Source: an uncultured Hyphomicrobiales bacterium (GTDB lineage: Bacteria; Pseudomonadota; Alphaproteobacteria; Rhizobiales; Beijerinckiaceae). From it: DNA of 64,000 bases. The stretch's first letter is position 1, and every line of letters begins with the position of its first letter. Below are positions 15,108-41,755 of this stretch, piece after piece. The DNA is taken from contig CAINED010000080.1 in NCBI GenBank assembly GCA_903847605.1, forward strand, positions 62,001-126,000. The letters are read 5' to 3'. Made by a program: the position numbers and the translations under genes. The notes beneath the pieces were generated by a model. It did no database searches, had not been told where the DNA came from, and saw nothing but the letters and a program-made list of their open reading frames with translations.

Positions 15108-15186
15108 GCGGCTCGCAACCTCTCGATATGCAGATTTTCCGCAAACGCGCCGGCCGCGCTGCCCTTCGATGTCTGCAATATTTGAT

Positions 15187-15192
15187 TATAAT
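15187..15192 (+). promoter_or_regulatory. Consensus -10 hexamer upstream of kpsM
   Basis: TATAAT at 15187-15192 is a perfect sigma-70-type -10 hexamer in the gap between divergent kpsC and kpsM. The best -35 candidate, TTCGAT at 15165-15170, is weak at 16-bp spacing. If this promoter is used, transcription starts near 15199, which excludes the upstream ATG at 15169 and supports translation of kpsM from ATG at 15253. Confidence 0.35.
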
Positions 15193-15252
15193 ATGCTACC
15201 CGTGCGCCGGATATTCGAAGCCGCGCGCGATTCACGCGGGAACCCGCAGGCG

Positions 15253-16083
15253 ATGACGGACGAGACGCAGTTCCGGAAAGCACCACTCCGCCCCTTCCAG
15301 GAGCGGCTGGCGGCGGCGATTGCGCTCCAGCAGCGGATTATCGTTGCGCTGTTCATTCGCGAGACACGCACGCGCTTCGGCTATTCGATGCTCGGCTATG
15401 GCTGGGTTCTGCTGGAGCCCGCTTTCAATCTCATCGTTTGGGCGGTGTTGTTCAACATGCTGGAACGGCACCCGCCGCTCGGCGCCAGCATGTTCATTTT
15501 CGTGGCGACCGCTTTTTTTCCATTCAAGCTGTTCCGCAACATGTCGGCGCAGCTTATGCCCTCGATCACTGCGAACCGGAGTCTCCTGTCCTTTCCCATC
15601 GTCCATAACCTCGACGTGATCATGGCGCGGGCGCTTCTGGAAGTCATAACTTTCATCGCCGTCACGGGCTTTTACTTCTCGCTGTTCGGCATTTTCGGCT
15701 TGCAGGCAGTTCCCGCGCAACCCATCGAAGCGATGCTCTGCCTGTCTGCCATTGGACTGTTTGGCTTCGGCATGGGCACAATCAATGCAGTGCTTGCCTG
15801 CCTTTTGCCATCTTGGCCGAGGATATACCCTTGGTATCTGCGGGTTTCCTATGTGAGTTCCGGCATCTTCTTTCTGCCGTCCCATTTGCCGCCCGCCGCA
15901 CAGGACATTCTCTGGTATTTGCCCATGACCCACGCCGTCGAATGGTTCCGTGTCGCTTTCTATGACGGCTACGAATCGACATTTCTGAACACGACCTATC
16001 TCGTCGCCTGGGGCGCACTGCTGACCTTTGTGGGCCTTGCGCTCGAACGCCTTCTGCGGCGCAGTATCAGCATCGCCAAATGA
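15253..16083 (+). CDS. kpsM: Capsule ABC transporter permease (KpsM-like)
   Basis: The 276-aa product is an ABC-2-type permease with about six hydrophobic segments. The N-terminal segment IRETRTRFGYSMLGYGWVLLEP is the typical cytoplasmic lead into the first helix of KpsM/Wzm proteins. It would move the finished capsule chain across the inner membrane together with KpsT. The frame opens at ATG 15169, but 15253 is chosen because it gives the family length and lies below a TATAAT box; 15169 and 15193 remain possible. Its stop overlaps the kpsT start as ATGA. Confidence 0.92.
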   Translation: MTDETQFRKAPLRPFQERLAAAIALQQRIIVALFIRETRTRFGYSMLGYGWVLLEPAFNLIVWAVLFNMLERHPPLGASMFIFVATAFFPFKLFRNMSAQLMPSITANRSLLSFPIVHNLDVIMARALLEVITFIAVTGFYFSLFGIFGLQAVPAQPIEAMLCLSAIGLFGFGMGTINAVLACLLPSWPRIYPWYLRVSYVSSGIFFLPSHLPPAAQDILWYLPMTHAVEWFRVAFYDGYESTFLNTTYLVAWGALLTFVGLALERLLRRSISIAK

Positions 16084-16751
16084 TCCGTTTCAGAAACGTC
16101 AGCAAATCCTATCGCGCGGGAACTTCGCATAAACAGATCCTCACGGATGCGACTTTCACGCTGCCGTGGCGCAACATCGCCATTCTCGGCGTCAACGGCG
16201 CGGGCAAGTCGACATTGATCCGCATGCTCGCCGGCTCTGAATTGCCCGACGATGGCGATATCAGGCGCGACGTCAGCGTGTCATGGCCGCTCGGTTTCGA
16301 TGGCGGCTTTCACGGCAGCCTGAGCGGTATCGAAAACCTGCGATTCATATGCCGCATCTACGATCGCGACATGGAGGAGGTCTCCAACTTCGTCGCCGAA
16401 TTCGCCGAACTTGGCCGCTATCTCTACATGCCCATCAAGACCTATTCGTCCGGCATGCGGGCGCGGCTCGCCTTCGCCCTCAGCATGGCGATCGACTTCG
16501 ATTGCTATCTGATCGACGAATTGACGGCTGTCGGCGACGCGCGCTTCCAGGAGCGTTGCGCCCGCGAGTTCGGACGCAAGCGCGAGCAGTCCCGAATCAT
16601 CATGGTGTCCCACTCCGAATCGACCGTTCGGGAGTATTGTGATATGGGTGGCGTTCTCATCGACGGTCGACTCGATCTTTATGACGATCTCGATTCGGCC
16701 ATCCTCGCCTATCGCGAAGTGCTGATGACAGTGCAGGAATTGCCTGAATGA
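16080..16751 (+). CDS. kpsT: Capsule ABC transporter ATPase (KpsT-like)
   Basis: The 223-aa product is a compact ABC ATPase of KpsT length. Walker A is NGAGKSTLIRML, the ABC signature is YSSGMRARLAFALSMA, and Walker B is FDCYLIDE, with the switch His in MVSHSE. It powers capsule export through KpsM. Four-base overlaps with kpsM upstream (ATGA) and kpsE downstream (ATGA) show a tightly coupled kpsM-kpsT-kpsE operon. Wzt-type ATPases of O-antigen export are larger because of a C-terminal carbohydrate-binding domain, which is absent here. Confidence 0.94.
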   Translation: MIRFRNVSKSYRAGTSHKQILTDATFTLPWRNIAILGVNGAGKSTLIRMLAGSELPDDGDIRRDVSVSWPLGFDGGFHGSLSGIENLRFICRIYDRDMEEVSNFVAEFAELGRYLYMPIKTYSSGMRARLAFALSMAIDFDCYLIDELTAVGDARFQERCAREFGRKREQSRIIMVSHSESTVREYCDMGGVLIDGRLDLYDDLDSAILAYREVLMTVQELPE

Positions 16752-18016
16752 GCCCAGCGACCTTGCGAAATGGTTTGACGGCCGCCCTCAATCGGCTGCG
16801 CGGCGGCGATGCGCCGCAACAGCGAGCAGCGGCGCCGGGGGCCTCCGTGATCCGGCCGGAGCGGTTTCAGGGCGCGGGCGAGCCCGCGCCGCAGCCGCGC
16901 AAGATCGCCAAGCCGAAATATTCTTTCGCCCGCATGTCGGCGATCGTGATGATATTGATCCCGACACTGCTGGGCGCGCTTTATTACGGACTCATCGCCT
17001 CGGATCAGTATTCGGCGAATTTTCAGCTTGCCGTTCGCAGCAACGACCGGCCGCTGATGGAGGCGATGGCGCCGGCAATGGCGGGGCTCAATTCGTCGCC
17101 TGTCGCCTCCGATTCCTACATCCTGGTTGAATACCTGCGCAGCCGTCAGCTTGTCGAGGATATCGCCAAGACCGTCGATTTGCGCGGCATGTACAGCCGC
17201 AGCGATCACGATTTTGTCTCGCGCCTGTCGTCGAACGCCTCGATCGAGGATCTCGTCGATTACTGGAAGAAGAAGATCGACGTGCGCTTCGAGAGTCAGT
17301 CGGGCATTGTCACAGCTTCGATCCGCGGCTTCCGGCCGGACGATGCGCTGATCATCAGTCAGTCCGCGCTGAAGTTGAGCGAAGGCCTCGTCAACCAGTT
17401 GTCGAAAAAGGCGCGCGAGGAGGCCGTGTCGGCAGCCGAAGACGATGTGAGGCGAATGGAAATCCGTCTCGCAACATCCATCGCCATGCTGAAGAAATTC
17501 CGCGACCGTACCGGCGTGATCGATCCTGCCAAGGGCGCTGGCGCCGGGCTTCAGGTGCTTGGCAAGTTGCAGGAAGAACTTGTCCGCCTTCGTACGCAAT
17601 TGTCGATCTTGTCGAAGAACATGCAGCCAACTGCGCCGCCGATCATCAATCTCAAGCAACGTATCGCTGCGACGGAAGAACAGGTCACCAATGCGAGATC
17701 CGAAGTCGGACGCAACGCCGCAGATGCGCAGACGCCGGAGCTGACCTCGCAGCTTCTGTCGGAATTCGAGTCGCTGGAACTCGAACGGCAATTCGCGGAA
17801 AAGGCTTATACAGCGACCCTTACGTCGCTGGAACGCGCGAGAAGCGACGCCATCCGCAACCAGCGCTACCTGTCGGTATTCGTCGAACCGCATATGCCGC
17901 AGGAGTCTTCGCATCCCAAGCGCATCATTATGATCCTGACGGTGCTGGGCTTTGCATTCCTCGCATGGGCTGTCTTCCTCCTCGTCTATCTGACGGTGAA
18001 GGAACACATCACCTGA
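16748..18016 (+). CDS. kpsE: Capsule export inner-membrane protein (KpsE-like, PCP family)
   Basis: The 422-aa product has the polysaccharide co-polymerase layout. A membrane segment follows the N-terminal cytoplasmic region (IVMILIPTLLGALYYGLI, near residues 62-80), then a long periplasmic region with coiled-coil character, and a C-terminal membrane segment (IIMILTVLGFAFLAWAVF). KpsE bridges the inner-membrane ABC transporter and the outer-membrane exporter. The N-terminal 55 residues are Pro/Ala/Arg-rich. It overlaps kpsT by 4 bp and ends 13 bp from a convergent gene. Confidence 0.9.
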   Translation: MSPATLRNGLTAALNRLRGGDAPQQRAAAPGASVIRPERFQGAGEPAPQPRKIAKPKYSFARMSAIVMILIPTLLGALYYGLIASDQYSANFQLAVRSNDRPLMEAMAPAMAGLNSSPVASDSYILVEYLRSRQLVEDIAKTVDLRGMYSRSDHDFVSRLSSNASIEDLVDYWKKKIDVRFESQSGIVTASIRGFRPDDALIISQSALKLSEGLVNQLSKKAREEAVSAAEDDVRRMEIRLATSIAMLKKFRDRTGVIDPAKGAGAGLQVLGKLQEELVRLRTQLSILSKNMQPTAPPIINLKQRIAATEEQVTNARSEVGRNAADAQTPELTSQLLSEFESLELERQFAEKAYTATLTSLERARSDAIRNQRYLSVFVEPHMPQESSHPKRIIMILTVLGFAFLAWAVFLLVYLTVKEHIT

Positions 18017-18029
18017 GGCAGCGGCGCCT

Positions 18030-19070: not shown

Positions 19071-19091
19071 GCCGGGTTCCCCCACCCGCCT

Positions 19092-19118
19092 CGCTGACGC
19101 TGCCTGTTTGCGTCAGCG
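19092..19118. terminator. Perfect 9-bp stem-loop between the kpsD-like gene and the next gene
   Basis: CGCTGACGC (19092-19100) pairs perfectly with GCGTCAGCG (19110-19118) around a 9-nt loop. It lies in the 84-bp gap after the kpsD-like gene on the minus strand. No T-run follows on either strand, so it may protect or attenuate the transcript rather than end it as a classic intrinsic terminator. Confidence 0.4.
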
Positions 19119-19154
19119 CAATTGGCCGGAACGTCAGGCCCCGTCGCCTTCCGG

Positions 19155-20330
19155 CTAGTTGCCGGCGACCTTCGCAATGCCGACGGCGCTTCCCGCATTG
19201 CCCAGAGCCGTACCGACAAGCTGGAACATCTTGAGCAATTGTGTGGCGTCGGCATTCGATACGTAAAGCAAATCCTGATTGCGCATCTGGAAGCGTTGGG
19301 CAAGCAGATAGCCGTTCGCCACCTTGAGATCGAGTTTGTAGATCGTCGGCACGCGCGGACCATGTTGCGTGTCGCTCCAGCCGGGACGCAGTCGCCGCAC
19401 GACTTCCGGACGCTCCCAGCGGAAAATGAAGACGCCGCGCGGATCTGCGCGGTAGTCCATGAGGCCGCCGGCCTGACCGATTGCGGTCGAAAGGTTCATC
19501 TTGTCGTTTTCGAATTTCAGCTCGGCGTTACGCGAGGCAGCGCCCAGCACGATCACGGCGCGCGGCTCTTTCTGCAAAAGGACCGTATCGCCCGTCCGGA
19601 TGAAGACGTTTTCACGGGGATCCTCGAATATGGTTTTCAAATTGACTGTGGCGGACCGATCGCCGCGCACCAGTTTGACCATCGTTTCGTGCGGCGGCGC
19701 GACGGAGCCGCCAGCCTGGGCGATCACGTCGAGCAGGCGTTCGTTGGCGATGCCAATGGGAAAACGGTTCGGCTGACGAACGTCGCCCGAAACCGTGACC
19801 ATGGCGCTGCGGTTCGTGGTCAGCGAGACGATCACCTGCGGATCGATGGCGCGGCCCTTGAGGCGTTCCTCGATGGCGCGCTCGATTTCGCGCGGCGAAC
19901 GACCGGCAGCGCGGATGTTTTCCGCGAAGGGGATGCGAATGAAGCCTGAGGGGTCGACGACCACCTGCGGCATGACGACGTTCTTGGAACCCGCGCCCAT
20001 GGAGGTTTCCGGCGCCGTAAAGAGACCGCCCAGCGCCGATTCGAAAATCGTCACGGAGAGAACGTCGCCTATTCCAACGGGCACGTTGGCGGGCGACCCA
20101 CGTCCGCCGAAACGACCGGCAAATGTCTCGTTGATCGGGCCGCCGGCTGCGCGCACGACGTCTTCGGTGATCTCAAAAACCTGGTAGTCGATCTGAGGCG
20201 CTGCTGTTTCCGAGGCAGCGAAAAGCTCGCCCGTCGTCGGCGCTCCCGATGGCAGGGACGAGCATCCCCCCAGCGCCAGAGCAAGCGCCAGAAAGAGTTG
20301 CTGTTTCAATATATTATGCCGCCTTACCAT
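19155..20330 (-). CDS. Polysaccharide export outer-membrane lipoprotein (Wza/KpsD family)
   Basis: The 391-aa product begins with a lipoprotein signal peptide ending in the lipobox LGGCSS. A poly-export domain (VGIGDVLSVTIFE) follows, then SLBB-like repeats (VTVSGDVRQPNRFPI and VIVLGAASRNAEL). These proteins form the outer-membrane channel for capsule. It fits here as the outer-membrane partner of KpsE/KpsM/KpsT. It is transcribed away from the deacetylase-like gene at 20561. A KpsD-type name is plausible, but full KpsD proteins are longer, so the symbol is left open. Confidence 0.9.
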   Translation of the reverse strand: MVRRHNILKQQLFLALALALGGCSSLPSGAPTTGELFAASETAAPQIDYQVFEITEDVVRAAGGPINETFAGRFGGRGSPANVPVGIGDVLSVTIFESALGGLFTAPETSMGAGSKNVVMPQVVVDPSGFIRIPFAENIRAAGRSPREIERAIEERLKGRAIDPQVIVSLTTNRSAMVTVSGDVRQPNRFPIGIANERLLDVIAQAGGSVAPPHETMVKLVRGDRSATVNLKTIFEDPRENVFIRTGDTVLLQKEPRAVIVLGAASRNAELKFENDKMNLSTAIGQAGGLMDYRADPRGVFIFRWERPEVVRRLRPGWSDTQHGPRVPTIYKLDLKVANGYLLAQRFQMRNQDLLYVSNADATQLLKMFQLVGTALGNAGSAVGIAKVAGN

Positions 20331-20560: not shown

Positions 20561-21466
20561 GTGACCGTTAAACATGACGCCGAAATGAAAGGCGTTTCTA
20601 CCGTCGAGAGCTTCCGCAAGCTTGTGGGATTCGTGCGCGACGATCTCGGGTTGAAGCCGGTCCTCTACCGGGATTATTGCAAGGATCCTGCCGAGGCCGG
20701 GATCGTTCTCGTGCGGCACGACGTAGACCACTCGATCGACAACGCCCTCATGCTGGCCCGGATCGAGGCCGATATGGGCCTGCGCTCGACCTATTTCATG
20801 CTTCACCCCGGCGACTACGACAACGACGAGAATTACTACGGCCGGATCGAGAATGGCCGCATCGTCCACCAGCCCGACTTTTTCGCCCGCTGCCGGGAGA
20901 TTGCCGCGATGGGCCACGAAATCGGCATCCACAATGACTTCTTCCAGCTTTCCTTCCTGACCGGACGCCCGATCCGCGAACTGCTTCTCGCGGAGGTCGA
21001 GGCCTTCCACGCGGCGGGCATCCCCGTCGCCGGATCGGCCTCGCACGGCAGTACATTCGTGCGCGAAATCGAGGCTGTGAACTACGAGATTTTCGCCGAA
21101 TGTGTTTCGAGCGGAAAACAGCGCAGCCGTATCGTGAAGTCCGGCACCTGGGAGGCGGAAACCCATACGATTTCGCTGGCCGATGTGGGGCTCGATTACG
21201 AGGCCTATTTCGTTCCGCGCAACATGGACATCAGCGATACCGGCTCGGCGGTGGCCCTTGCTTCGCGCACGTTCCGCGCCGACAACATGAACCTCACCTC
21301 GGACGAGGCCTACGATCTTATCCGCAAGACGGTGGCGGAAATCGACGGCGTGCGCCTCGTCATGCTCATACATCCCTGCTGGTGGAACGAAATCGTGCCG
21401 CCATTCTGGGCGATGGATGGTATATTGCCATCCGGTCTGAAACGGATGTTCCGGCGGGCGGGCTAA
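20561..21466 (+). CDS. NodB-like polysaccharide deacetylase homologue
   Basis: The 301-aa product shows the altered NodB motif VLVRHDVDHSIDNAL, then GHEIGIHND, in which the His residues would bind metal, and a late LIHPCWW segment. HDVDH-type members of the carbohydrate esterase 4 superfamily occur in O-antigen and capsule loci, and their substrates are mostly unknown. There is no signal peptide, so it probably acts on a cytoplasmic or nucleotide/lipid-linked sugar. The start is GTG at 20561 with GAGGGA in front; ATG at 20585 is an alternative. The next gene starts 8 bp after its stop, so the two form a pair. Confidence 0.8.
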   Translation: MTVKHDAEMKGVSTVESFRKLVGFVRDDLGLKPVLYRDYCKDPAEAGIVLVRHDVDHSIDNALMLARIEADMGLRSTYFMLHPGDYDNDENYYGRIENGRIVHQPDFFARCREIAAMGHEIGIHNDFFQLSFLTGRPIRELLLAEVEAFHAAGIPVAGSASHGSTFVREIEAVNYEIFAECVSSGKQRSRIVKSGTWEAETHTISLADVGLDYEAYFVPRNMDISDTGSAVALASRTFRADNMNLTSDEAYDLIRKTVAEIDGVRLVMLIHPCWWNEIVPPFWAMDGILPSGLKRMFRRAG

Positions 21467-21474
21467 TATTAGTC

Positions 21475-22509
21475 ATGAAAAAGTATTTCCTTGCCTGGTT
21501 GGCTTTGAACGGGCGGCTTTATCGCTACATGCGCAAGCGTCTGCGGCGGCGCGCGGCCGGGAGCGTCGGCGCGCCCGCGTCATCGCGAACGGCAGCGCAG
21601 CCGCTTTCCGGCAGTCCGCAAGGCCCAATGGCAGGAGGCGCAAAGCCCGTTCCGACCAAGAAGAAGGAGGAGCCGCGCGGCATCGATTATCTCGGCGCAT
21701 TCGGGCTCCCCTCGGTCGACGATATTCCCGTCGCTGAAATCGTCCACGGCGTTTCGTCGGACTGCAAGAATTACTGCACGATCTGGGCTGGCCGCGTGCA
21801 AACAAGCTTCAAGGAATATTTTTCGTTCGAGCCCGTGGCGAAAGGCTGGAGCCTGCGGCACACGCCGATGCTCATAGATCTTGAAGACTATGCCGACTAC
21901 GAAGCCTTCGAAAATTACATCAAGAAATTTTCGGACGGCGAGCGCATTCGCATGGCGAAACGGGCGCAGGCGAAGGGGTATGTCGTTAAAACCTTCAACT
22001 GGAACCTGTTCATTCCCGACATTCACGCCATCAATACGTCCGAGAAAACCCGTTCCGGCGGCGACATGCGCGGCGGCTATTTGCGCACAGTCGAGGAAAT
22101 GGGCGGCCCGCCCAAGACCTATCTTTTGCCGCCGGCCGCGCCGTGCCGAGACTACTGGCAACATTGCTTCGGCGTCTTTGCGCCGACGCCCGGCTACAAG
22201 CAGGGCGAAATCATTACGGATGAAAGACTGCTTGCCTATTTCGCGCCGCGCCGCTTCGGCAATGTCGTCGTCTATTCCATGCTGCTGGGGCATGGCGATC
22301 ATCTCGCCGAAGGCATCATGGATTTTGGCCACCAGCACATCACGCGCTGGATTTTCGAGCGCAAGTCGCCCGATCTCCAAGGTTTGCGATACGTGATGTA
22401 TGGCGGGATGGAAAATGGTGGCGAGGGACTTTTCCAGTGGAAGCGCCGCTCGGGCTTCAAACCTTATCGAGTCTATAGCCGGCAAACAGAGTGTATGGTG
22501 AAGGCCTGA
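21475..22509 (+). CDS. Unrecognised protein, possible acyltransferase-like enzyme
   Basis: I cannot assign this 344-aa protein. The frame is open far upstream inside the preceding gene, but ATG at 21475, 8 bp after that gene's stop, gives the plausible start. A basic N terminus with a short hydrophobic stretch is followed by a low-complexity segment (about 30-65) and a compact domain from residue 75. Conserved-looking blocks are FNWNLFIPDIHAINTS, RSGGDMRGGY and YSMLLGHGDH. The DIHAINTS..R.G pattern reminds me of GNAT/FemAB-like acyltransferases, which is a guess. Its pairing with the deacetylase-like gene suggests joint work on a capsule sugar substituent. Confidence 0.65.
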   Translation: MKKYFLAWLALNGRLYRYMRKRLRRRAAGSVGAPASSRTAAQPLSGSPQGPMAGGAKPVPTKKKEEPRGIDYLGAFGLPSVDDIPVAEIVHGVSSDCKNYCTIWAGRVQTSFKEYFSFEPVAKGWSLRHTPMLIDLEDYADYEAFENYIKKFSDGERIRMAKRAQAKGYVVKTFNWNLFIPDIHAINTSEKTRSGGDMRGGYLRTVEEMGGPPKTYLLPPAAPCRDYWQHCFGVFAPTPGYKQGEIITDERLLAYFAPRRFGNVVVYSMLLGHGDHLAEGIMDFGHQHITRWIFERKSPDLQGLRYVMYGGMENGGEGLFQWKRRSGFKPYRVYSRQTECMVKA

Positions 22510-22529: not shown

Positions 22530-23654
22530 TTACTTCTCCTTGAGTCCACTGATCCAATCGGCAAGATAGCGCGCGACGAAGCCAGCGGCGTCGCCGTCGC
22601 CATAGAGATGTCCGGCGGCTGAAAAATCGGGCTTGGATGCCAGCGCCGCTTCGCATGCTTCAAGAATACTTGTGATAGCGGTCGGCGGCGCGAGGCGGTT
22701 GAATCCGCCTTCGACAAGCTCCATCCATTCCGTATCCGTGCGCAGCGTGACGCAGGGAACCCTGTGAAAGAAGGCTTCCTTCTGCACGCCGCCGGAATCC
22801 GTGACGATCAGTTGCGCCGCAGATTCGAGACGATACATGTCGAAAATGCCGACGGGATCGATGATTGTGAGGTTTTTGGGCGTCTCGAACGTCCAGCGCC
22901 CGCGCGTGCGTGGATGCAACGGCAAGACAACTGGCATTTTCTGCGAAAGAGCGGCGAGCGCACCGGCTATGTTTCGCAACGCGGCTTCATCGTCCACATT
23001 CGAAGCGCGGTGAACGGTCGCCAGCGCGTAGGATTTTCCTTGCAGATCAAGTTGCTTGAGTATTGTGCTGCGCGTCTTCGCGATCTCGGTAAATTTTAGC
23101 GCGGCGTCGAACATCACGTCGCCCGTGCGCACGATCGAGTCTCGCGCGAAACCTTCTTGCAGCAAATTCGCAACAGCTGTGTCAGTCGGCGCGAACAATA
23201 CGTCGGAGACGCGATCAGTCACCATCCGGTTGATCTCTTCGGGCATCGTCCGGTTGAACGAACGCAGACCCGCTTCGACATGCGCCAGGGGAATATGGAG
23301 TTTCGCCGAAACGAGCGCTGCGGCAAGCGTCGAATTGGTGTCGCCATAAACCAGCATCATATCCGGCTGCGCATTGATGCAGACCTCTTCGAGCGCGATC
23401 ATGATCTCGCCGGTCTGGCGCGCATGGCTGCCCGAGCCTATCCCCAAGTTGAACTGCGCCGCTGGGATCTGCAATTCTTCGAAAAAAATGCCGGACATGT
23501 TGTCGTCGTAATGCTGGCCGGTATGCACAAGCACTTCTTCCAGCCGTGCGTCCTTTGCGATGGCGTGCGACACCACGGCCGCTTTCACGAATTGCGGCCG
23601 TGCGCCGATCACGGTCAGAAGTTTGGGGCGCGCTGCGCCGGGATTCGATGTCAT
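22530..23654 (-). CDS. Non-hydrolysing UDP-N-acetylglucosamine 2-epimerase family (WecB/WbpI)
   Basis: The 374-aa product has the family hallmarks TVIGARPQFVKAA at the N terminus, HVEAGLRSFNRTMPEEINR in the middle and VTDSGGVQKEAFF near residue 290. Enzymes of this group invert C2 of UDP-GlcNAc (WecB) or of UDP-2,3-diacetamido-2,3-dideoxy-glucuronic acid (WbpI). The neighbouring wbpA-wbpB-wbpD-wbpE set makes the WbpI role attractive, because it would finish a UDP-ManNAc3NAcA route. Sequence alone does not decide the substrate. It is convergent with the gene at 21475-22509 (20-bp gap) and lies 76 bp downstream of a glycosyltransferase gene. Confidence 0.9.
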   Translation of the reverse strand: MTSNPGAARPKLLTVIGARPQFVKAAVVSHAIAKDARLEEVLVHTGQHYDDNMSGIFFEELQIPAAQFNLGIGSGSHARQTGEIMIALEEVCINAQPDMMLVYGDTNSTLAAALVSAKLHIPLAHVEAGLRSFNRTMPEEINRMVTDRVSDVLFAPTDTAVANLLQEGFARDSIVRTGDVMFDAALKFTEIAKTRSTILKQLDLQGKSYALATVHRASNVDDEAALRNIAGALAALSQKMPVVLPLHPRTRGRWTFETPKNLTIIDPVGIFDMYRLESAAQLIVTDSGGVQKEAFFHRVPCVTLRTDTEWMELVEGGFNRLAPPTAITSILEACEAALASKPDFSAAGHLYGDGDAAGFVARYLADWISGLKEK

Positions 23655-23730
23655 GCGTCAGCGTACAATCGGTGAGGGCGCACAACAACGTGCGACCGGT
23701 TGAAAGCGGTTGGCGAAGACGTTTCCTGGA

Positions 23731-25455
23731 TCAGGCGGCAGGCGCCGGATCGAAGGCGATGTTGCGCGGCGTGCCAGCAAGAACGATATCCGAACCGGCA
23801 ACCCTGAGTGTGACGCGCCGCGCCTTCTTGTCCAGAAAATACATGGGAAGCGTGAGACGGAAGCCGGCGATCTCGCCACCCTCTTTCGATGCGTCTTCGT
23901 TTGGAAGGCCTGTACGCCCCTCGCCGATTTTTTCCTCGCGATAAAACGCTTCGATCTTCAATTTGCGGCCGGGATGATTGAAGTCGGCGGCCCATCCCAC
24001 AATATCCAGCCCGTCGACACGAACGAGAGCGCCACGGTAATCCGCCGGGCCCTCGTAAACGGGTTCCGGCGCCTCGGGCGGCGAAGCCGGGGCTGAAGGA
24101 AAAGTGCTGGATGCGGTTGGACGCGGTGCGCCCGCGACGACGGCCAAAGAGAAAGCCGCAGCCGGTCTGGCTACAGGACGAACTGGCGCAGTCGTTTCAC
24201 GAGCCTTGCCATCCGGCGTGAGTCCGGCCCAATTGTCCTGTTCGAGGCCGCGCCGGATTTCGCTGCGTGCGCGTTCGTAAAGTTCGGCTAGCCGCTGGCA
24301 TTGGCTTTCCCAGGCTACAGCTTTGACGAAAGACGACTCGCTATCGAGCCGCGCCGTATAGGCGATGCGCTTGGTGAAGACAGTCCTCAACGCCCGTGCG
24401 AGATCTTCGACATCCTCAGCGCAGAAAACCTCGCCGATTCCCCAGTCCCGCACGAAATCGCCCATCGCCTTGCAATCGCTGACGACGCAAGGCACGCGCG
24501 CGATACAATAGTCGAACAGTTTGTTGGGCAGCGCGACTTCGGCATTCTCGAAATGCACCATGGGATGAACGCCGACAGTCGCATCCTGAATGAAGCTCGG
24601 AACTTCGTCGGGCGGGACGTAAGGTGTAATATGCAGGCGGCTGGCGCAGCCGTTCCGTTCGGCGAAGTATTTCAGAGAATTGACGTAATCGCCGGAGTTG
24701 TTGGTGACGAGCGCAACATGCATCTCGGGGATCAGCGGCAGCGTTTCGACCAGCGTATGCACGCCGCGCGGCGGCGCGACCCCGCCGGTATAGACCGCCA
24801 GTGGGACCTGGTCGGACAGCCCCAGCTTTTTGCGGATGGTTTCCGGATAATGTGGATTGTAGCTGTCGGAGCCATTCGAATTGAGGATTACGGCAGGGCC
24901 GATGCGCAGACGATAATCGCGCCTGATCGCATCGGCGAGATGCGGCGAGACCGTGATCAATTGGTCGGGAATACGAATGCACTCGTCCTGATGCTGGACG
25001 CCGCGCTTGCGAATTTCGTCGTCGATGGAAGTGAGACCGGCGACATATTCGTGCAGATCGTGAACCCAGTAGATGTGTCTGCCCTGCTCTCGGGCCCGGA
25101 AGAGGAGTTCCCGACCGATTTTCAGCGTGTTGAAATCGTGCGTGTGCAGGATGGCCGGCGCGTTCTGATCGAACTGTCCGGACATGGCTGCGGCGAGCAT
25201 GGCAATATGGGCTTCCCAATTGAGAGCGCGTGAAGGCGCATTCCGGATTTGAAATCGCGGATTGGGAAAAAGGATCGCCAGAACGCCGTCGATCATTTTT
25301 GGCGCGGGTTGATCGACGCCGCGGTCGGAGGACACGCCGAAAATCGTCAGGGGATGGCCAAGACTGCGCAGTTGTTTGGCGCATTTCAGCACACGATTGT
25401 CGTGCTCGACATCGTTGAGGACGATCATCAGCACCGGACAATCGGCCGGAGTCAT
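23731..25455 (-). CDS. GT4-like glycosyltransferase with a C-terminal accessory domain
   Basis: The 574-aa product has a GT-B catalytic part (about 1-380): LMIVLNDVEHDNRVLK at the start, YWVHDLHEYVAG, and the donor-side LFDYCIARVPCV. A Pro/Ala-rich linker (about 415-460) joins it to a C-terminal beta-rich domain with the pattern VDGLDIVGWAADFNHPGR and a late GFRLTLP. Such DG...GWA.D domains occur on other alphaproteobacterial surface-polysaccharide enzymes and may bind glycan. The frame opens at TTG 25500; ATG at 25455 is chosen because AGAGGG precedes it and it sits just before the first conserved strand. ATG at 25476 is an alternative. Confidence 0.85.
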   Translation of the reverse strand: MTPADCPVLMIVLNDVEHDNRVLKCAKQLRSLGHPLTIFGVSSDRGVDQPAPKMIDGVLAILFPNPRFQIRNAPSRALNWEAHIAMLAAAMSGQFDQNAPAILHTHDFNTLKIGRELLFRAREQGRHIYWVHDLHEYVAGLTSIDDEIRKRGVQHQDECIRIPDQLITVSPHLADAIRRDYRLRIGPAVILNSNGSDSYNPHYPETIRKKLGLSDQVPLAVYTGGVAPPRGVHTLVETLPLIPEMHVALVTNNSGDYVNSLKYFAERNGCASRLHITPYVPPDEVPSFIQDATVGVHPMVHFENAEVALPNKLFDYCIARVPCVVSDCKAMGDFVRDWGIGEVFCAEDVEDLARALRTVFTKRIAYTARLDSESSFVKAVAWESQCQRLAELYERARSEIRRGLEQDNWAGLTPDGKARETTAPVRPVARPAAAFSLAVVAGAPRPTASSTFPSAPASPPEAPEPVYEGPADYRGALVRVDGLDIVGWAADFNHPGRKLKIEAFYREEKIGEGRTGLPNEDASKEGGEIAGFRLTLPMYFLDKKARRVTLRVAGSDIVLAGTPRNIAFDPAPAA

Positions 25456-26222
25456 GCCCTCTTTGCGCGATTCCATCCTTTGCACCCGTTCGTCAGGCAA
25501 ACATCTTCAGGAGAAAATTCTTACCCCTGCGTGCATGGCGGCTTTCGGGGTTCGAAGGGCCGATAACAACTCGGCTAAGCGATGTCCATATCACCGGGCG
25601 TCCGCCGCGCCATGCGGAGGGGCGGGGAAGTCCGCAGGCGGAATTTTTCCTGCTGTCGGGTATTTGTCGCGCAGGTTGAAATTTAGCCTTCGTTGTCATC
25701 CATTTGCCCACAAATCGGGGTGCCGGGCGGGGGCCGCCCACAAAGTAGTTGCTTGCATCTTATTGACTCCAAGCGGGATTTTTGAGAAGGCCTGCCCCGG
25801 TTGGGTGCGGCGCAGCGAAGCGCCGCCGAGCCCGCAGGACGCCAGGCGTGGGGCCAGTAATGTCGGTACCCCTTGCAAGGGGCATGTCCACCGGATTGGC
25901 TGAAGGCCGCGCTTTTAAAGCCGGTCGGGACGTCCCGCCGGAGAAGCCGGAAGAACTCGTGGATGGGGAACCCGTTTCCCACCACGCCAGGAAACGGAGA
26001 GAAGCCGAGTTTTCGATCGCCAGCGTTTGGCGCCGCCGCCGAAGAATTCGATCCTGCGCAAGCGGATGGAAGTTTCGCGTGCGGGTCCTTTGCTGCTGAA
26101 ATAAGCCGGGCAATTGGCTATTCAGGAACGGTGATCGAATTCCGATTCTCGAAAGATGCCCGCCGGGAGGCCCTGATTAAGGAGCCTCGCCATCTTTCCG
26201 GCGCACCGTTGTGGAGAAGACA
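25456..26222. other. 767-bp gene-free region with several strong hairpins upstream of wbpA
   Basis: No convincing gene is present on either strand; open frames here are short and lack family features. Several palindromes cluster in the middle. A 7-bp stem GCGGCGC/GCGCCGC at 25807-25826 has a loop of AGCGAA. CCCCTTGCAAGGGG at 25869-25882 is a perfect palindrome. GGGACGTCCC at 25926-25935 lies inside a longer imperfect CCGG-bounded palindrome (25921-25941). A GGGGAA/TTTCCC hairpin lies near 25960-25985. They could be folded leader RNA, a small RNA, a repetitive element or regulator sites. The wbpA ribosome site GGAGA is at the right end. Confidence 0.5.
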
Positions 26223-27638
26223 ATGAACAGGTCGAATTTGCATCTCGTTTCAGGGGATCATGGGGCAAAGAGTATGAAACCCGGAACAGTCAGCGGTGCA
26301 GTCGACGAAGCGCTGGTCAACAGCCTTTTGGGGCGGATCAATGCCCGGCAGGCGAAGATCGGCATCATCGGCCTCGGTTACGTCGGCATTCCCCTGGCGC
26401 TGGTCGCCGTCCGCCGCGATCTGAGTGTCCTCGGCTTCGATGTGAATCGCGAACGCGTCGCTGAATTGAACGAGGGCCGCTGCTCCATCGCTCATATTTC
26501 CGAGACCGATATCGCCAACGCGCGCGACCGCGGGCTGTTAGAGGCGACGGCGGAGTTTGCCCGCCTCGGCGATATGGACGCGATCATCATCTGCGTGCCG
26601 ACGCCACTGACCAAGCATCAGGAGCCCGATCTCTCCTATGTCGAGCAGACCGCGCAGACGATCGCCAGAACCTTGCGACGCGGGCAACTCATCGTGCTGG
26701 AATCGACGACCTGGCCTGGCACAGTCGACGAAGTGATGCGTCCGATCCTCGAAAGGACCGGCATGCGCAGCGGCGTCGATTTCTTCCTCGCCTTCTCGCC
26801 CGAACGTGAAGACCCCGGAAACGAGAAATTCGAAATGGCGGGCATTCCCAAGGTTGTCGGCGGCGACGGCAAACATGCGCTCGAACTCGCCAACGCACTC
26901 TACAGCGTGCTCGTGACGCGCACTGTCCCGGTCTCGTCGGCGGCTACAGCTGAAGCCGTCAAACTCACCGAAAACATTTTCCGCGCCGTCAACATCGCGC
27001 TGGTGAACGAACTCAAGGTGATCTATTCGGCGATGGGTGTGGATGTCTGGGAAGTCATCGAAGCTGCCAAGACCAAGCCGTTCGGCTACATGCCATTCTA
27101 CCCCGGTCCCGGCCTCGGCGGACACTGCATTCCCATCGATCCCTTCTATCTCACATGGAAGGCGCGCGAATACGGCATCAGCACGCGCTTCATCGAACTG
27201 GCCGGCCAGATCAACCGCGCCATGCCACGGCTCGTGGTGGCCGAACTCGCCAAGGCGCTCGACCGCCGTTTCCGCTGTGGCCTGAACGGTTCGAAGATTC
27301 TGATGATGGGCGTTGCTTACAAAAAGAATGTCGACGACATGCGCGAGAGCCCCTCGCTCGTACTGATCGAAATTCTCGAAGAGCGGGGCGCGATCGTTGA
27401 ATTTCACGATCCCTTCATTCCCGTCATTCCCGAGACCCGTGAGCATGCAGCGCTCGCAGGCCGCAAGTCGGTACCTCTGACTGCGGAAGAACTGAAGAAA
27501 TACGACGCGGTGCTGATTTCGACTGATCACGATTCCGTCGACTACGGCCTTCTCGTCAAGAATTCCAAACTTGTCGTCGATACCCGCAATGTCGTCGAAC
27601 GACGCGGGGTATCGGCCGACAATGTCATCAAGGCCTGA
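26223..27638 (+). CDS. wbpA: UDP-N-acetyl-D-glucosamine 6-dehydrogenase (WbpA type)
   Basis: The 471-aa product has an N-terminal NAD-binding motif IGIIGLGYVGIPLA and the catalytic-cysteine block GLGGHCIPIDPFYL with Cys302, followed by LTWKARE as in WbpA. It oxidises UDP-GlcNAc to UDP-GlcNAcA using NAD. The GTG at 26211 is in frame, but ATG at 26223 is preferred with GGAGA 7 nt before it. The residues before the nucleotide-binding motif form a longer N terminus than usual (about 45). It leads the operon wbpA-wbpB-wbpD-wbpE. WecC-type ManNAc dehydrogenases are the main alternative; the downstream genes favour WbpA. Confidence 0.92.
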   Translation: MNRSNLHLVSGDHGAKSMKPGTVSGAVDEALVNSLLGRINARQAKIGIIGLGYVGIPLALVAVRRDLSVLGFDVNRERVAELNEGRCSIAHISETDIANARDRGLLEATAEFARLGDMDAIIICVPTPLTKHQEPDLSYVEQTAQTIARTLRRGQLIVLESTTWPGTVDEVMRPILERTGMRSGVDFFLAFSPEREDPGNEKFEMAGIPKVVGGDGKHALELANALYSVLVTRTVPVSSAATAEAVKLTENIFRAVNIALVNELKVIYSAMGVDVWEVIEAAKTKPFGYMPFYPGPGLGGHCIPIDPFYLTWKAREYGISTRFIELAGQINRAMPRLVVAELAKALDRRFRCGLNGSKILMMGVAYKKNVDDMRESPSLVLIEILEERGAIVEFHDPFIPVIPETREHAALAGRKSVPLTAEELKKYDAVLISTDHDSVDYGLLVKNSKLVVDTRNVVERRGVSADNVIKA

Positions 27639-27660
27639 GACGAGCGGTGGCGGCGCGCAT

Positions 27661-28608
27661 GTGAGAGATACATTGGGGAACTTTGCATTGATCGGCGCGG
27701 GCGGTTACATCGCGCCCCGCCACCTCGCCGCCATCAGGGCGGTCGGGGGCGATCTGGTTGCCGCCGTCGATCCGAGCGATTCTGTCGGCGTGATCGACAG
27801 CTATTTTCCCGATGCCCATTTTTTCACGCGCTTCGAACGGTTCGACGCGCATATTGCTGATATGATCCGTGGCGGCAGCAATCTCGATTACGTTTCGATT
27901 TGCTCGCCGAACCATCTGCACAACGAACACCTGCATTTCGCGCTGAACCATGGCGCCGACGCAATCTGCGAAAAGCCGCTGGTGATCGACCCGCGCGATC
28001 TCGACGAACTTTCTGCGCTCGAACGGGCAAGCGGCAAGAAAATCTCGACCATCCTGCAATTGCGCCTTCACGAAGCCGTCAACAGGCTGCGCGAGAAGTT
28101 TTCGGGCATCAACAAAAGACATCAGGTCGATCTGACCTACGTCACTTCGCGTGGGCGCTGGTATCACGAATCCTGGAAAGGCGACGAGGCGAAATCCGGC
28201 GGCGTCGTGACCAATATCGGCATTCATCTCTTCGACATGCTGAACTATCTGTTCGGACCCGTCGAACATCAGGTTGCGCATCTGCACGACGACAAGCGCG
28301 CTGCTGGCTATCTCGCATTCAAACATGCTGACGTGCGCTGGTTCCTGTCGATCGATCGCAACGATCTGCCAGAGGCCGTCAAAGGAAAGCAGAACACATT
28401 CAGGGCCATCGAAATCGATGGCGAGGATGTGGAATTTTCCGATGGCTTTACCGAGCTGCACAGCGACAGCTATCGGGAGATCGTCGCAGGCAGGGGCTTC
28501 AGCATCGAGGACGTGCGTCCCTCGGTGGAACTGGTGGCGGGGTTCCGCTTCCTGCCGCTGACGCCCGGCAATGGCGAGCGCCATCCGCTTGCTGCGCAAT
28601 ATCTGTGA
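27661..28608 (+). CDS. wbpB: UDP-GlcNAcA 3-dehydrogenase (WbpB type, Gfo/Idh/MocA family)
   Basis: With GTG at 27661 the product is 315 aa, close to WbpB of Pseudomonas, and begins [20 protein letters not shown], the expected Rossmann start. Other motifs are [12 protein letters not shown], the CEKPL segment of Gfo/Idh/MocA enzymes, and the [15 protein letters not shown] stretch before GIHLFDML. WbpB oxidises C3 of UDP-GlcNAcA and is coupled to the WbpE aminotransferase. The frame is open upstream, and ATG at 27622 or 27571 would overlap wbpA; these give residues that do not match the family. Confidence 0.9.
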
Positions 28609-28615
28609 GCGGACG

Positions 28616-29233
28616 ATGAGTGCGCCATCTGACGGAGCCTCCGGCCAGATGAAATCCGATCCCCGTTTTCCAGGCGCGCTGATTCATGAAAGCGCCTATG
28701 TGGACGCCGGCGCGAAAATCGGAGCGGGTACGAAAATCTGGCATTTCGCGCATGTGCTCGCGGAAACGACGATCGGAGAGCGCTGTGTCCTCGGCCAGAA
28801 TGTCATGGCTGGCCCCCGCGTCGCCATCGGGAACAATTGCAAGATTCAAAACAATGTCGCGCTCTACGAAGGCGTTACTCTCGAGGACGACGTGTTCTGC
28901 GGGCCGTCCTGCGTCTTTACCAATGTCAATAATCCCCGCGCCTTCGTCGAACGCAAGGCGGAATTTCGGCACACGCGCGTCGGGCGCGGCGCGACCATCG
29001 GGGCAAACGCCACCATCGTCTGCGGCCACAGCATCGGCGCCTATGCTTTCATTGCGGCCGGGGCGGTTGTCACGCATGATGTTCCCGACTATGCGCTGAT
29101 GGTGGGCGTACCCGCGCGGCGGACCGGTTGGGTCAGCCGCACGGGAGAAATTCTCGGCAGGGATCTCGTCTGCCCGCGCACGGGCGAGGCCTATCGCGAG
29201 ACGCCGGATGGGCGGCTCGAGCCCATAAACTGA
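28616..29233 (+). CDS. wbpD: UDP-GlcNAc3NA N-acetyltransferase (WbpD type, left-handed beta-helix)
   Basis: The 205-aa product is a hexapeptide-repeat acetyltransferase with turns such as [27 protein letters not shown] and [11 protein letters not shown], and a late [17 protein letters not shown] typical of WbpD. It acetylates the 3-amino group made by WbpB and WbpE, giving UDP-GlcNAc3NAcA. ATG at 28616 lies 7 bp after the wbpB stop. An open frame from 28571 is a less likely extension. The C-terminal tail with [10 protein letters not shown] is typical of this group. Confidence 0.92.
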
Positions 29234-29262
29234 TGCTGTCGCGAACGTAGTCGGGGTAGTGG

Positions 29263-30399
29263 GTGAGCGAGCCGGAAAAGTTGCCTTTCATCGATCTCGG
29301 CGCACAACGCCGCCGCCTGGGCGCGGCGATCGATCGTGCGGTGCTCGATGTCGTCAATCACGGCAGCTACATCATGGGCCCGGAGGTCGCGCAACTCGAG
29401 GACGAACTGTCGAAGTTCTGCGGCGCCGGTCAGACAGTCTCCTGTTCAAACGGCACCGACGCATTGGCGCTCGTTCTGATGGCAAAGGGCGTGAAGCCCG
29501 GCGACGCCGTGATTTGCCCGAGTTTCACCTTCGCCGCGACGGCTGAGGTTGTTGCCTGGACCGGTGCCACGCCGGTCTTCGCCGATGTTCTCGAGGATAC
29601 GTTCAACCTTGATTCCGCGAGCGTCGAGGCCGGAGTCGCGCGTGCGCGCGAACGCGGGTTGCGTCCCGTGGCGCTGATCAGCGTCGACCTCTTTGGCCAG
29701 CCCGCCGATTACGATGCGCTCGAGCCGATCTGCATCCGCGAAGGCATGTTTCTTTTGTCTGACGCCGCGCAAAGTTTCGGCGCGACCTATCGCAGCCGCA
29801 AGGTCGGAACGATCGGCGCGGCGACGGCCACGAGCTTTTTTCCCGCCAAACCGCTGGGCTGTTACGGCGACGGCGGCGCGGTTTTCACGGATGACGCCGA
29901 ACTCGCGGAGATCATGCGCTCGATCCGCGTGCATGGGCAGGGCAGCGACAAATACGACAATGTGCGTATCGGCATCAATGGACGGCTCGACACGATTCAG
30001 GCCGCCGTGCTCATCGAGAAGCTGAAAATTTTTCCGCAGGAAATCGAAGCGCGCGAGCGCATTGCGCGACGCTATGACGAAGCCTTGAGAGATCTCTGCG
30101 TCATCCCCGCGCGCACGTCTGGCACGCAATCGGTCTGGGCGCAATATACATTACGCGTCGATGCAAATCGCCGGGACGCCTTGCGCGATACGCTTGCAGC
30201 GCAGGGCATTCCAACGGCCATCTATTATGCGAAGCCGCTGCATTGCCAGCAGGCCTATGCGCATTATCCCGTCGCGGGAAATGGCCTGCCGGTTTCGGAA
30301 CGGCTCGCTGGCGAAGTCGCCAGCTTGCCGATGCATCCCTATCTGGAAGTACCGACGCAGGATCGCATTATTGCATCGGTGCGAAGGGCGCTTGCCTGA
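29263..30399 (+). CDS. wbpE: UDP-3-keto sugar aminotransferase (WbpE type, DegT/DnrJ/EryC1 family)
   Basis: The 378-aa product is a PLP aminotransferase. The N terminus has GSYIMGPEVAQLE, and the PLP lysine is Lys196 in FFPAKPLGCYGDGGA, preceded by DAAQSFGATY. It transfers an amino group to C3 of the keto intermediate formed by WbpB. The start is GTG at 29263 after a 29-bp gap, with a poor ribosome site, so coupling to wbpD is likely. It is the last gene of the wbpA-B-D-E unit, and the epimerase that would complete the pathway lies at 22530-23654 on the other strand. Confidence 0.93.
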   Translation: MSEPEKLPFIDLGAQRRRLGAAIDRAVLDVVNHGSYIMGPEVAQLEDELSKFCGAGQTVSCSNGTDALALVLMAKGVKPGDAVICPSFTFAATAEVVAWTGATPVFADVLEDTFNLDSASVEAGVARARERGLRPVALISVDLFGQPADYDALEPICIREGMFLLSDAAQSFGATYRSRKVGTIGAATATSFFPAKPLGCYGDGGAVFTDDAELAEIMRSIRVHGQGSDKYDNVRIGINGRLDTIQAAVLIEKLKIFPQEIEARERIARRYDEALRDLCVIPARTSGTQSVWAQYTLRVDANRRDALRDTLAAQGIPTAIYYAKPLHCQQAYAHYPVAGNGLPVSERLAGEVASLPMHPYLEVPTQDRIIASVRRALA

Positions 30400-30410
30400 A
30401 ATTGCGCGCA

Positions 30411-30460
30411 AGAGCATCGTGCGAAAAAGTGGATCCGGTTTTCGCGAGAACGATCCTCTG
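30411..30460. repeat. Short intergenic repeat resembling a common Hyphomicrobiales element
   Basis: Between the convergent wbpE and glycosyltransferase genes lies AGAGCATCGTGCGAAAAAGT, followed by GGATCCGGTTTTCGCG and AACGATC. The pattern GCATC..GCGAAAAAGTGGATCCGGTTTTCGCG with a central inverted repeat (CGAAAA/TTTTCG) matches, from memory, a multi-copy short element found between genes in many rhizobial relatives. The copy number in this genome cannot be seen here. Confidence 0.6.
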
Positions 30461-30519
30461 CATTATAAAATCGATCCGCTTTTGTGCGATTGGCTAATTC
30501 CAGCTCATCGCATGCTGAT

Positions 30520-31758
30520 CTAGGCTGAAACTTTAGGCGCGACGGCTTTCTTGTCGGCCGGCAGAATGTGATCGTAGATTTTCACGAGCTTTTCGGCCTG
30601 TGCGCTCCACGAATAATTTTTTTCGAGATGCGCGCGCCGCGCACCGTTGAAGCGGTAGGTCTGCTTTTCGTTGAACAGGCGGAATATGCTGTAAACGAGG
30701 TCCGTCTGGTTCTCGAAGTCGACGATGATGCCGTTGCCGTTCTCCGCCAGAAATTCTTCGATCTCGTCGAGCTGGTTCGAGATGATCGGAACATCTGCGA
30801 AAGAGAGCTCGAACAGCTTGTTCGGCATGCAATAGCGGTAAGAGAGCGTGATCGGCTCGACTGAAATGACGCCGGCATCCGCGCCCGCAATATAGTCGAC
30901 GACTTGTTCGAAGGGCACCGGCGGCAGAATTCGAAAGCGCGCCGAAACGCCCTGTTCCGAGGCTTGCGTCATCAGCGCTTCGCGTTGCACCGCGTCACAG
31001 GGGCCGACCGTGGCGAAGACCACGCCCTTGAGATTGCGCAGCAGCGAAAGAATTTCGCTGACGCCGCGCCCCACTGCGACCTTGCCGACATAAACTACCA
31101 GTGGCGTCGTCTCCGGCAATGCGAGATCGCTGCGCACATGACGCGGGCAAGTCTCGACAGGCGGGCTGTTGAAGAGGACGTTCACATCCTTGCGGCCCAA
31201 TTCTTCGCCAAGAATTTCTGCGATCTTGCGGCCGACCGTGATGACGGCGGCAGCTTTCGAGCCGTACTGTTTTTCGACCTTGCCGACATACCATTTCTGC
31301 AGACGTGGTAGCGGCGGATTACGATGCACCTCGAGTTCGTGGGCGTCGTAAACGACTTTTGCGCCGCAGGCTTCAGCGGCTTCCATGCCGGCGCGCAGGC
31401 AGATCAGATCGTGCGCGTGGATGATATCCGGCTTCAGGTTGACGACATGTTTGCCGAAAACGTGGCTGAAAAGCCTGTACTTGAGGAACGGCACGAATTT
31501 CCGTGCAATGCGAATGGCCAGCGGCCGGCCCTTTTTGCCCCATAGACGCATGGGAGAATTGTCGACGATGATCTGCGCAGGCCGCCATTCGAGGCGGTGA
31601 AAGGTAATGCCATCGACAGTCTGATAGGGGACCGTATCGGCGCTCAGCGTGCCGAAGACATGCACTTCGTGGCCGGCGTCGCGCGCGCCGCGCGCCATTT
31701 TGAGAACGCGCGCATCGATGGTGCAGGGATTTGAGACGAGAACGGCAACGCGGGCCAT
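30520..31758 (-). CDS. GT4-like glycosyltransferase
   Basis: The 412-aa product has a GT-B fold pattern: VAVLVSNPCTIDARVLKMA at the N terminus, KPDIIHAHDLICL, VVYDAHELEVHRNPP and a second-domain LVVYVGKVAVGRGVSEIL, with MPNKLFELSFADVPII in the donor site. The YDAHE motif is shared with the enzyme at 10405-11655. It probably contributes a sugar to the capsule repeat. The ATG at 31758 directly abuts the stop of the pentapeptide-repeat gene upstream, so the two are likely translationally coupled. Sugar specificity cannot be deduced. Confidence 0.88.
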   Translation of the reverse strand: MARVAVLVSNPCTIDARVLKMARGARDAGHEVHVFGTLSADTVPYQTVDGITFHRLEWRPAQIIVDNSPMRLWGKKGRPLAIRIARKFVPFLKYRLFSHVFGKHVVNLKPDIIHAHDLICLRAGMEAAEACGAKVVYDAHELEVHRNPPLPRLQKWYVGKVEKQYGSKAAAVITVGRKIAEILGEELGRKDVNVLFNSPPVETCPRHVRSDLALPETTPLVVYVGKVAVGRGVSEILSLLRNLKGVVFATVGPCDAVQREALMTQASEQGVSARFRILPPVPFEQVVDYIAGADAGVISVEPITLSYRYCMPNKLFELSFADVPIISNQLDEIEEFLAENGNGIIVDFENQTDLVYSIFRLFNEKQTYRFNGARRAHLEKNYSWSAQAEKLVKIYDHILPADKKAVAPKVSA

Positions 31759-41680: not shown

Positions 41681-41755
41681 TGGTGGGCGCGACAGGGATT
41701 GAACCTGTGACCCCTCCCGTGTGAAGGGAGTGCTCTCCCGCTGAGCTACGCGCCC
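41681..41755 (-). tRNA. tRNA-Val (anticodon CAC), CCA encoded
   Basis: The minus strand folds as a standard 75-nt cloverleaf. The acceptor stem GGGCGCG pairs with CGCGCCC, the D stem GCTC pairs with GAGC, and the anticodon stem CTCCC/GGGAG encloses loop TTCACAC with anticodon CAC. The T arm is ACAGG/CCTGT with loop TTCAATC. A discriminator A and CCA end at 41681. CAC reads the valine codon GUG. Confidence 0.96.

Follow-up and report, generated by a model that had tools for sequence, protein, structure and literature searches.

A Wbp-type diacetamido-uronic acid cassette beside KpsCS-type capsule genes in an uncultured Hyphomicrobiales bacterium

Does an uncultured Hyphomicrobiales bacterium of the family Beijerinckiaceae build a diacetamido-uronic acid into its capsule, or does it make this sugar for another glycan, merely next to capsule genes? 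The question is raised by a stretch of 64,000 nucleotides (GenBank assembly GCA_903847605.1, contig CAINED010000080.1; G000:C80:62001-126000 in our numbering), here called the window, which is part of a 5.34-Mb genome in 92 contigs. All five Wbp enzyme families are encoded together in the window, with matches far above chance, in the neighbourhood of genes for KpsC- and KpsS-type transferases of 3-deoxy-D-manno-oct-2-ulosonic acid (Kdo) and for a Kps exporter. We consider it probable that the five enzymes make uridine diphosphate (UDP)-2,3-diacetamido-2,3-dideoxy-D-mannuronic acid (UDP-ManNAc3NAcA), and that this sugar is built into a poly-Kdo-anchored polymer which the Kps proteins export as a capsule.

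The sugar pathway and its epimerase

The wbpA-B-D-E homologues are tightly packed at 26211-30399 on the plus strand. The wbpI homologue stands outside this run, on the opposite strand, separated from wbpA by a glycosyltransferase gene followed by a gap of 710 bp. In the following lines, enzymes with solved relatives are given with Protein Data Bank entries; N-acetylglucosamine is abbreviated GlcNAc, its uronic acid GlcNAcA, and the gluco form of the diacetamido sugar GlcNAc3NAcA.

22530..23654, minus: wbpI, predicted non-hydrolysing UDP-GlcNAc3NAcA 2-epimerase (8sxv, 400 bits; Ala/Tyr/Trp residue set; tree)
26211..27638, plus: wbpA, UDP-GlcNAc 6-dehydrogenase, substrate suggested by context (TIGR03026, 416 bits)
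27661..28608, plus: wbpB, UDP-GlcNAcA 3-dehydrogenase, predicted 2-ketoglutarate-recycling type (3oa2, 3o9z); start uncertain
28616..29233, plus: wbpD, hexapeptide-repeat N-acetyltransferase (3mqg, 232 bits); start uncertain
29263..30399, plus: wbpE, pyridoxal phosphate-dependent aminotransferase with Lys196 (4qgr, 437 bits; 3nyu, 339 bits)

The original prediction, made from the sequence alone, had named these five homologues, and each of them has strong solved relatives (8sxv, 4r16, 3oa2/3o9z, 3mqg and 4qgr/3nyu, respectively). The residues it singled out are likewise in place: catalytic Cys302 of WbpA is residue 306 when counted from the GTG at 26211 and 302 from the ATG four codons on, the CEKPL segment of WbpB occupies positions 133-137 of the longest open reading frame (ORF), Lys196 of WbpE is present, and its view of WbpD as a hexapeptide acetyltransferase agrees with the 3mqg match. 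Since the longest wbpB and wbpD ORFs align with the solved chains only from codons 35 and 36 onwards, translation probably starts near 27661-27673 and 28616-28649.

The WbpA-type dehydrogenase matches 4r16 with 237 bits; it is 51-52% identical to two WbpB-linked dehydrogenases and 34% to Escherichia coli WecC, and for the annotated wbpA product of a Pseudomonas plasmid cluster the value is 51%. WbpB scores 357 bits against 3oa2 and 324 bits against 3o9z (presumably of Thermus origin), both labelled WbpB; the presumed Chromobacterium and Bordetella WlbA chains, 3q2i and 3q2k, give only 31 bits. It is encoded by a single-copy gene, the three other matches in the genome staying below 30 bits, and its closest named relatives are, by record titles, alphaproteobacterial (Bosea, 'Hyphomicrobiales bacterium', Bradyrhizobium); that they belong to the Hyphomicrobiales is in part read from these titles and in part our assumption. 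The window WbpB is thus predicted to be of the Pseudomonas/Thermus type, so that of the parallel to Pseudomonas and Bordetella drawn in the original prediction the Pseudomonas half holds, and the Bordetella half does not fit the 31-bit scores. For the P. aeruginosa O:3a,d enzyme, a ping-pong mechanism has been described in which 2-ketoglutarate oxidises the NADH, as opposed to a sequential mechanism in the Bordetella and Chromobacterium enzymes (PMC10622841), and WbpB of P. aeruginosa PAO1 reduces 2-ketoglutarate to D-2-hydroxyglutarate (PMC8651671). Taken together with the score pattern, these mechanisms lead us to predict that the window WbpB uses 2-ketoglutarate and that WbpE, whose relative 3nyu is itself named WbpE, regenerates it from glutamate. 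If the type assignment is right, capsule synthesis would be tied to 2-ketoglutarate and hence to the formation and removal of D-2-hydroxyglutarate, a link published for PAO1 WbpB and its lipopolysaccharide (LPS) (PMC8651671).

The epimerase decides between the manno and the gluco form of the product. Its best solved match by phmmer is 8sxv, the Thermus thermophilus UDP-GlcNAc3NAcA 2-epimerase solved by Thoden et al. in 2023 (PMC10622841), as compared with 130 bits against E. coli WecB by BLAST. According to that paper, the Thermus enzyme is fitted to its substrate by Trp307 in place of the Arg of UDP-GlcNAc epimerases, which in WecB contacts the C3 hydroxyl, by Ala18 in place of Leu/Met and by Tyr96 in place of His/Gln (PMC10622841). 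The window epimerase has Ala18, Tyr96 and Trp307 (Thermus numbering) and thus departs from the WecB set; Met/His/Arg are found in E. coli WecB and in a second Epimerase_2 gene of the same genome (C76:39011-40048). Of the further catalytic and allosteric positions examined, all are conserved but that of Lys245, which is Gly here and varies among relatives. We compared 33 distinct epimerases, counting loci with the same gene once and admitting only matches of E 1e-15 or better and at least 250 residues, which removed, for example, the cut one of locus L024. Site 307 is Trp in 26, Arg in six and a gap in one, and the full Ala/Tyr/Trp set occurs in 22 of the 33, Thermus and the window included. 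In a tree of these 33 rows, the window protein, its counterpart in the congener G012 and the Thermus enzyme, whose activity has been assayed biochemically, fall into one set of seven rows (support 99/97), and three WecB-type rows stand apart (100/100). A grouping with WecB, which the original prediction had named as the outcome that would count against it, was therefore not what the tree gave, and the residue set together with the tree favours the manno over the gluco form, in keeping with its first choice of sugar. On sequence grounds the matter is settled in favour of a UDP-GlcNAc3NAcA 2-epimerase (WbpI), the activity itself being predicted. The product of the second gene shares 58% identity with E. 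coli WecB, and the gene adjoins one for a dehydrogenase that is 51% identical to E. coli WecC (G000:C76:37631-40048), so that a separate route to UDP-N-acetylmannosaminuronic acid (UDP-ManNAcA) appears to exist in the genome and the window epimerase is not needed for UDP-ManNAc. The Ala/Tyr/Trp set, as judged on 33 sequences, may also help to correct the common 'WecB' label of such epimerases.

The pathway that we propose on this basis would run from UDP-GlcNAc to UDP-ManNAc3NAcA. WbpA would oxidise C6; WbpB would oxidise C3, and 2-ketoglutarate would then re-oxidise the enzyme-bound NADH; WbpE would aminate C3 from glutamate, returning 2-ketoglutarate; WbpD would acetylate the new amine; and WbpI, with UDP-GlcNAc as allosteric activator, would invert C2. 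P. aeruginosa O5 carries the 3-acetamidino form of the sugar. A WbpG-type amidotransferase (TIGR03573) found no match in the genome, and this form is therefore not expected here. The cluster on a Limimaricola plasmid (L182) also has hisH, hisF-like and N-acetyl sugar amidotransferase genes, probably an acetamidino set.

Capsule genes and their linkage to the cassette

The genes for both Kdo transferases and for KpsM/T/E/D lie at 11702-20330, and three glycosyltransferase genes are spread over the locus:

11702..13072, minus: kpsS-type Kdo transferase (PF05159; NF050054 KpsS, 289 bits, under the curated cut-off)
12933..15107, minus: kpsC-type double Kdo transferase (both halves match solved KpsC, 6mgd and 6mgb)
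15169..16083, plus: kpsM, permease of an ATP-binding cassette (ABC) transporter (PF01061; NF050053, 129 bits, under the cut-off)
16080..16751, plus: kpsT, ABC ATPase (PF00005)
16748..18016, plus: kpsE/ctrB/bexC-type export protein (TIGR01010, 246 bits, under the cut-off)
19155..20330, minus: kpsD/wza-type outer-membrane export protein (PF02563, PF22461)
10405..11655, minus: probable divergent GT4-like glycosyltransferase (weak sub-threshold PF13439; kept beside kpsS in G012)
23731..25500, minus: GT4-type glycosyltransferase with an extra C-terminal domain (PF13692, PF00534; adjoins wbpI in G012 too)
30520..31758, minus: GT4-type glycosyltransferase (PF13579, PF13439)

The KpsCS-type Kdo linker of the original prediction is borne out by its genes, the two KpsC halves scoring 199 and 193 bits against the solved chains; KpsS, KpsM and KpsE are divergent members, as their scores stay under the NCBIfam curated cut-offs. 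The 5' end of kpsS, as called, overlaps the kpsC ORF by 140 bp. By its gene content the region classifies as an ABC-transporter-dependent (group 2 type) capsule locus with a predicted poly-Kdo anchor. The glycosyltransferases of the locus would place the sugar into a polymer on the poly-Kdo lipid made by KpsS/KpsC, and KpsM/T/E/D would export this polymer as a capsule; the entry of the sugar into the capsule is suggested by gene linkage.

The linkage finds its strongest echo within the genus. Among 51 genomes, WbpB occurs in two, the window genome (G000) and G012, and KpsC in three, with full-length KpsC only in those same two. Such an overlap would arise by random draw with P 0.0008 (two and two) or 0.002 (two and three), values that ignore the kinship of both genomes. 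In G012 the kps genes stand in the same order on one contig, along with both proteins that the window encodes at 20561-22509 (the second one inverted); the KpsC match there contains one stop codon. On a second contig wbpI adjoins the same glycosyltransferase gene as in the window, and a third carries wbpA-B-D-E, 83, 72, 79 and 80% identical to the window genes.

A number of observations weigh against our answer, some of them concerning the sugar and others its destination. The substrate of WbpA, UDP-GlcNAc, is suggested by gene context alone, and the best WbpA-family match is less than 45% identical to the window protein in 32 of those 45 among the best 80 WbpB loci that have one in the stretch compared. 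The epimerase signature is not absolute either: the full set is present in 15 of the 20 rows that come from the best 80 WbpB loci (one row is cut before site 307), the deviating ones being L048, L058, L062 and the second epimerase of L092; L178 deviates too, and the seven-row set with the window protein also contains L048 (Leu/Phe/Trp) and L178 (Val/Tyr/Trp). As to the capsule, common descent may be enough to explain the two co-occurring genomes, the linkage of cassette and kps genes is unproven in G012 because each of the three gene groups has a short contig to itself, and the mixed gene orientation in the window means that the locus is not one operon. Across the order, WbpB was found in 29 and KpsC in 85 of 397 genomes and both in four (the window genome included) versus 6.2 expected, with at most two candidates scored per genome, so that extra copies may be missed; the two are not associated at this level. 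In two of the three other double-positive genomes (G077 and G136) linkage is undecided because WbpB lies near a contig end, and in the third (G417) WbpB lies mid-contig with KpsC on another contig. The flanks of the best 80 WbpB loci from named genomes, up to 10 kb on each side, contain no KpsC or KpsS, a test left incomplete by the WbpB-KpsC distance of about 13 kb in the window itself. When 49 of these named genomes were searched whole, KpsC turned up in five, in all five on a contig whose length differs from that of the WbpB contig, with contig breaks as a possible cause. Linkage of WbpB and KpsC was thus seen in no other genome examined, contig ends and short flanks leaving some cases open; it is uncommon and supported only inside this lineage.

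These counts bear directly on whether UDP-ManNAc3NAcA is made for another glycan, such as an LPS O-antigen, a glycoprotein or an exopolysaccharide, with the proximity of the kps genes being incidental. ManNAc3NAcA has been described from O-antigens and LPS (PMC10622841), which would be in line with this notion, as would the independence of WbpB and KpsC across the order. The best 80 WbpB loci span, by record titles, Pseudomonadota, Bacteroidota, Planctomycetota and further phyla, and near WbpB they contain WbpD in 59, WbpE in 49 and WbpI in 19 cases (at least 35% identity and at least 60% coverage); this spread argues for a sugar cassette of wide occurrence. Its neighbours differ among three plasmids, being another ABC exporter (Pseudomonas), an O-antigen-ligase-family gene (Deinococcus) or a flippase-family gene (Limimaricola). 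Nevertheless, we regard a destination other than the capsule as unlikely, since WbpB and full-length KpsC share the same two genomes of the genus, the cassette is flanked by kps genes and further glycosyltransferase genes, and the scanned ORFs of 9663-33159 gave no match to a flippase or polymerase family.

A different kind of alternative, compatible with a ManNAc3NAcA capsule, is that the polymer is edited after synthesis by the products of two genes located between kpsD and wbpI:

20561..21466, plus: possible polysaccharide deacetylase-like protein, by eye (no Pfam match; 65% in the G012 locus)
21475..22509, plus: unclassified 344-aa protein, possible modification enzyme (no family match; 73% in the G012 locus, inverted)

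They might remove or replace an acyl group, yielding a modified 2,3-diamino-uronic acid. Their position and their retention in the G012 kps locus would agree with such a role; neither protein, however, has a family assignment, the deacetylase reading was made by eye, and we consider editing rather doubtful. A WecB-type function of the window epimerase, with UDP-GlcNAc as its substrate and hence GlcNAc3NAcA, the gluco form, in the capsule (besides ManNAc or ManNAcA), is highly improbable, as the NCBIfam name wecB (TIGR00236, 300 bits, cut-off 210) and the wecB annotation of cluster epimerases on three plasmids are opposed by the residue set, the far higher score against the Thermus than the E. 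coli enzyme, the tree and the WecB-type gene elsewhere in the genome.

Composition and neighbouring genes

GC content stays between 0.58 and 0.64 across the locus (2-kb steps), and the composition gives no sign of a foreign island. Rfam yielded a single tRNA at 41684-41755 and no match inside the capsule/wbp locus, a search for a sigma-70-like promoter pattern found none in 25300-30700, and PHROGs gave no match for six locus proteins.

Pfam, NCBIfam and PHROGs all gave nothing for the 344-aa protein at 21475-22509 (plus strand), whose AlphaFold model has a mean pLDDT of 86.7. A search of 5.8 billion proteins returned 1863 candidates, of which 40, its own entry among them, reach E <= 1e-10; several relatives have an additional N-terminal domain. 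In the glycosyltransferase next to wbpI, about 119 C-terminal residues (23734-24090, minus strand) lie outside its Pfam matches, and among the loci compared this stretch has a clear match only in the G012 counterpart (46%). The glycosyltransferase gene at 30520-31758 adjoins one for a pentapeptide-repeat protein (31759-33159, minus strand) with coiled-coil-like and membrane stretches, as judged by eye. On visual inspection, a small kps-locus protein (18030-19085, minus strand) and an HlyD-type protein (35989-37830, minus strand) also seem alike in their N-terminal parts; the latter adjoins a C39-like ABC transporter at 37894-40095. Immediately past the capsule region there is a cytochrome P450 gene (34566-35984, plus strand), and 57405-60077 encodes an RTX-repeat protein.

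Comparison with known systems

All five enzyme families are common to the window and the Wbp system of P. aeruginosa PAO1 (WbpA, WbpB, WbpE, WbpD, WbpI). The window differs in the missing TIGR03573 match, in the position of wbpI, which stands apart on the other strand, and in having kps genes rather than O-antigen assembly genes nearby. The Pseudomonas plasmid cluster shares the order A-B-D-E, continued there as A-B-D-E-I. The KL3 capsule of Acinetobacter baumannii is of the Wzx/Wzy type, without poly-Kdo ABC export. Its dga genes include, as does the window locus, wbpB/D/E homologues for UDP-GlcNAc3NAcA, but the sugar proposed for it is the gluco form (PMC3628348). With Thermus thermophilus HB27 the window shares the epimerase residue set, the best-scoring solved epimerase and a 3o9z-type WbpB, the difference being that Thermus has glycolipids in place of LPS, and that the available parts of the paper name no capsule (PMC10622841).

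On the side of the capsule machinery, H. influenzae HcsA/B have been named as KpsC/S homologues (PMC10299916). The capsules of Haemophilus influenzae type d/e and Pasteurella multocida B/E have a backbone with an N-acetylated mannuronic acid; this is ManNAcA with one N-acetyl group, not ManNAc3NAcA (PMC10627249). The H. influenzae type e capsule had been considered as a ManNAc3NAcA precedent and was dropped, as the same source gives ManNAcA with a fructose branch (PMC10627249). In the openly licensed PMC papers searched, ManNAc3NAcA was not reported from any KpsCS capsule, an absence that is weak evidence.

None of the enzymes stands out from its known family, and neither the sugar nor any of the machinery is new. 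The 'distinctive capsule' of the original prediction is thus upheld only in part, as regards the WbpB-KpsC linkage, seen in no other genome examined, and not as regards the parts that are joined. We are evenly divided on the fuller picture of a poly-Kdo-anchored, ABC-transporter-dependent capsule with ManNAc3NAcA, found in a small lineage of one genus (2/51 genomes) and possibly edited by the deacetylase-like and the unclassified protein. In relation to the systems above, our findings suggest that a Wbp sugar cassette can apparently dock onto a KpsCS-type capsule machine, and only this pairing looks uncommon.

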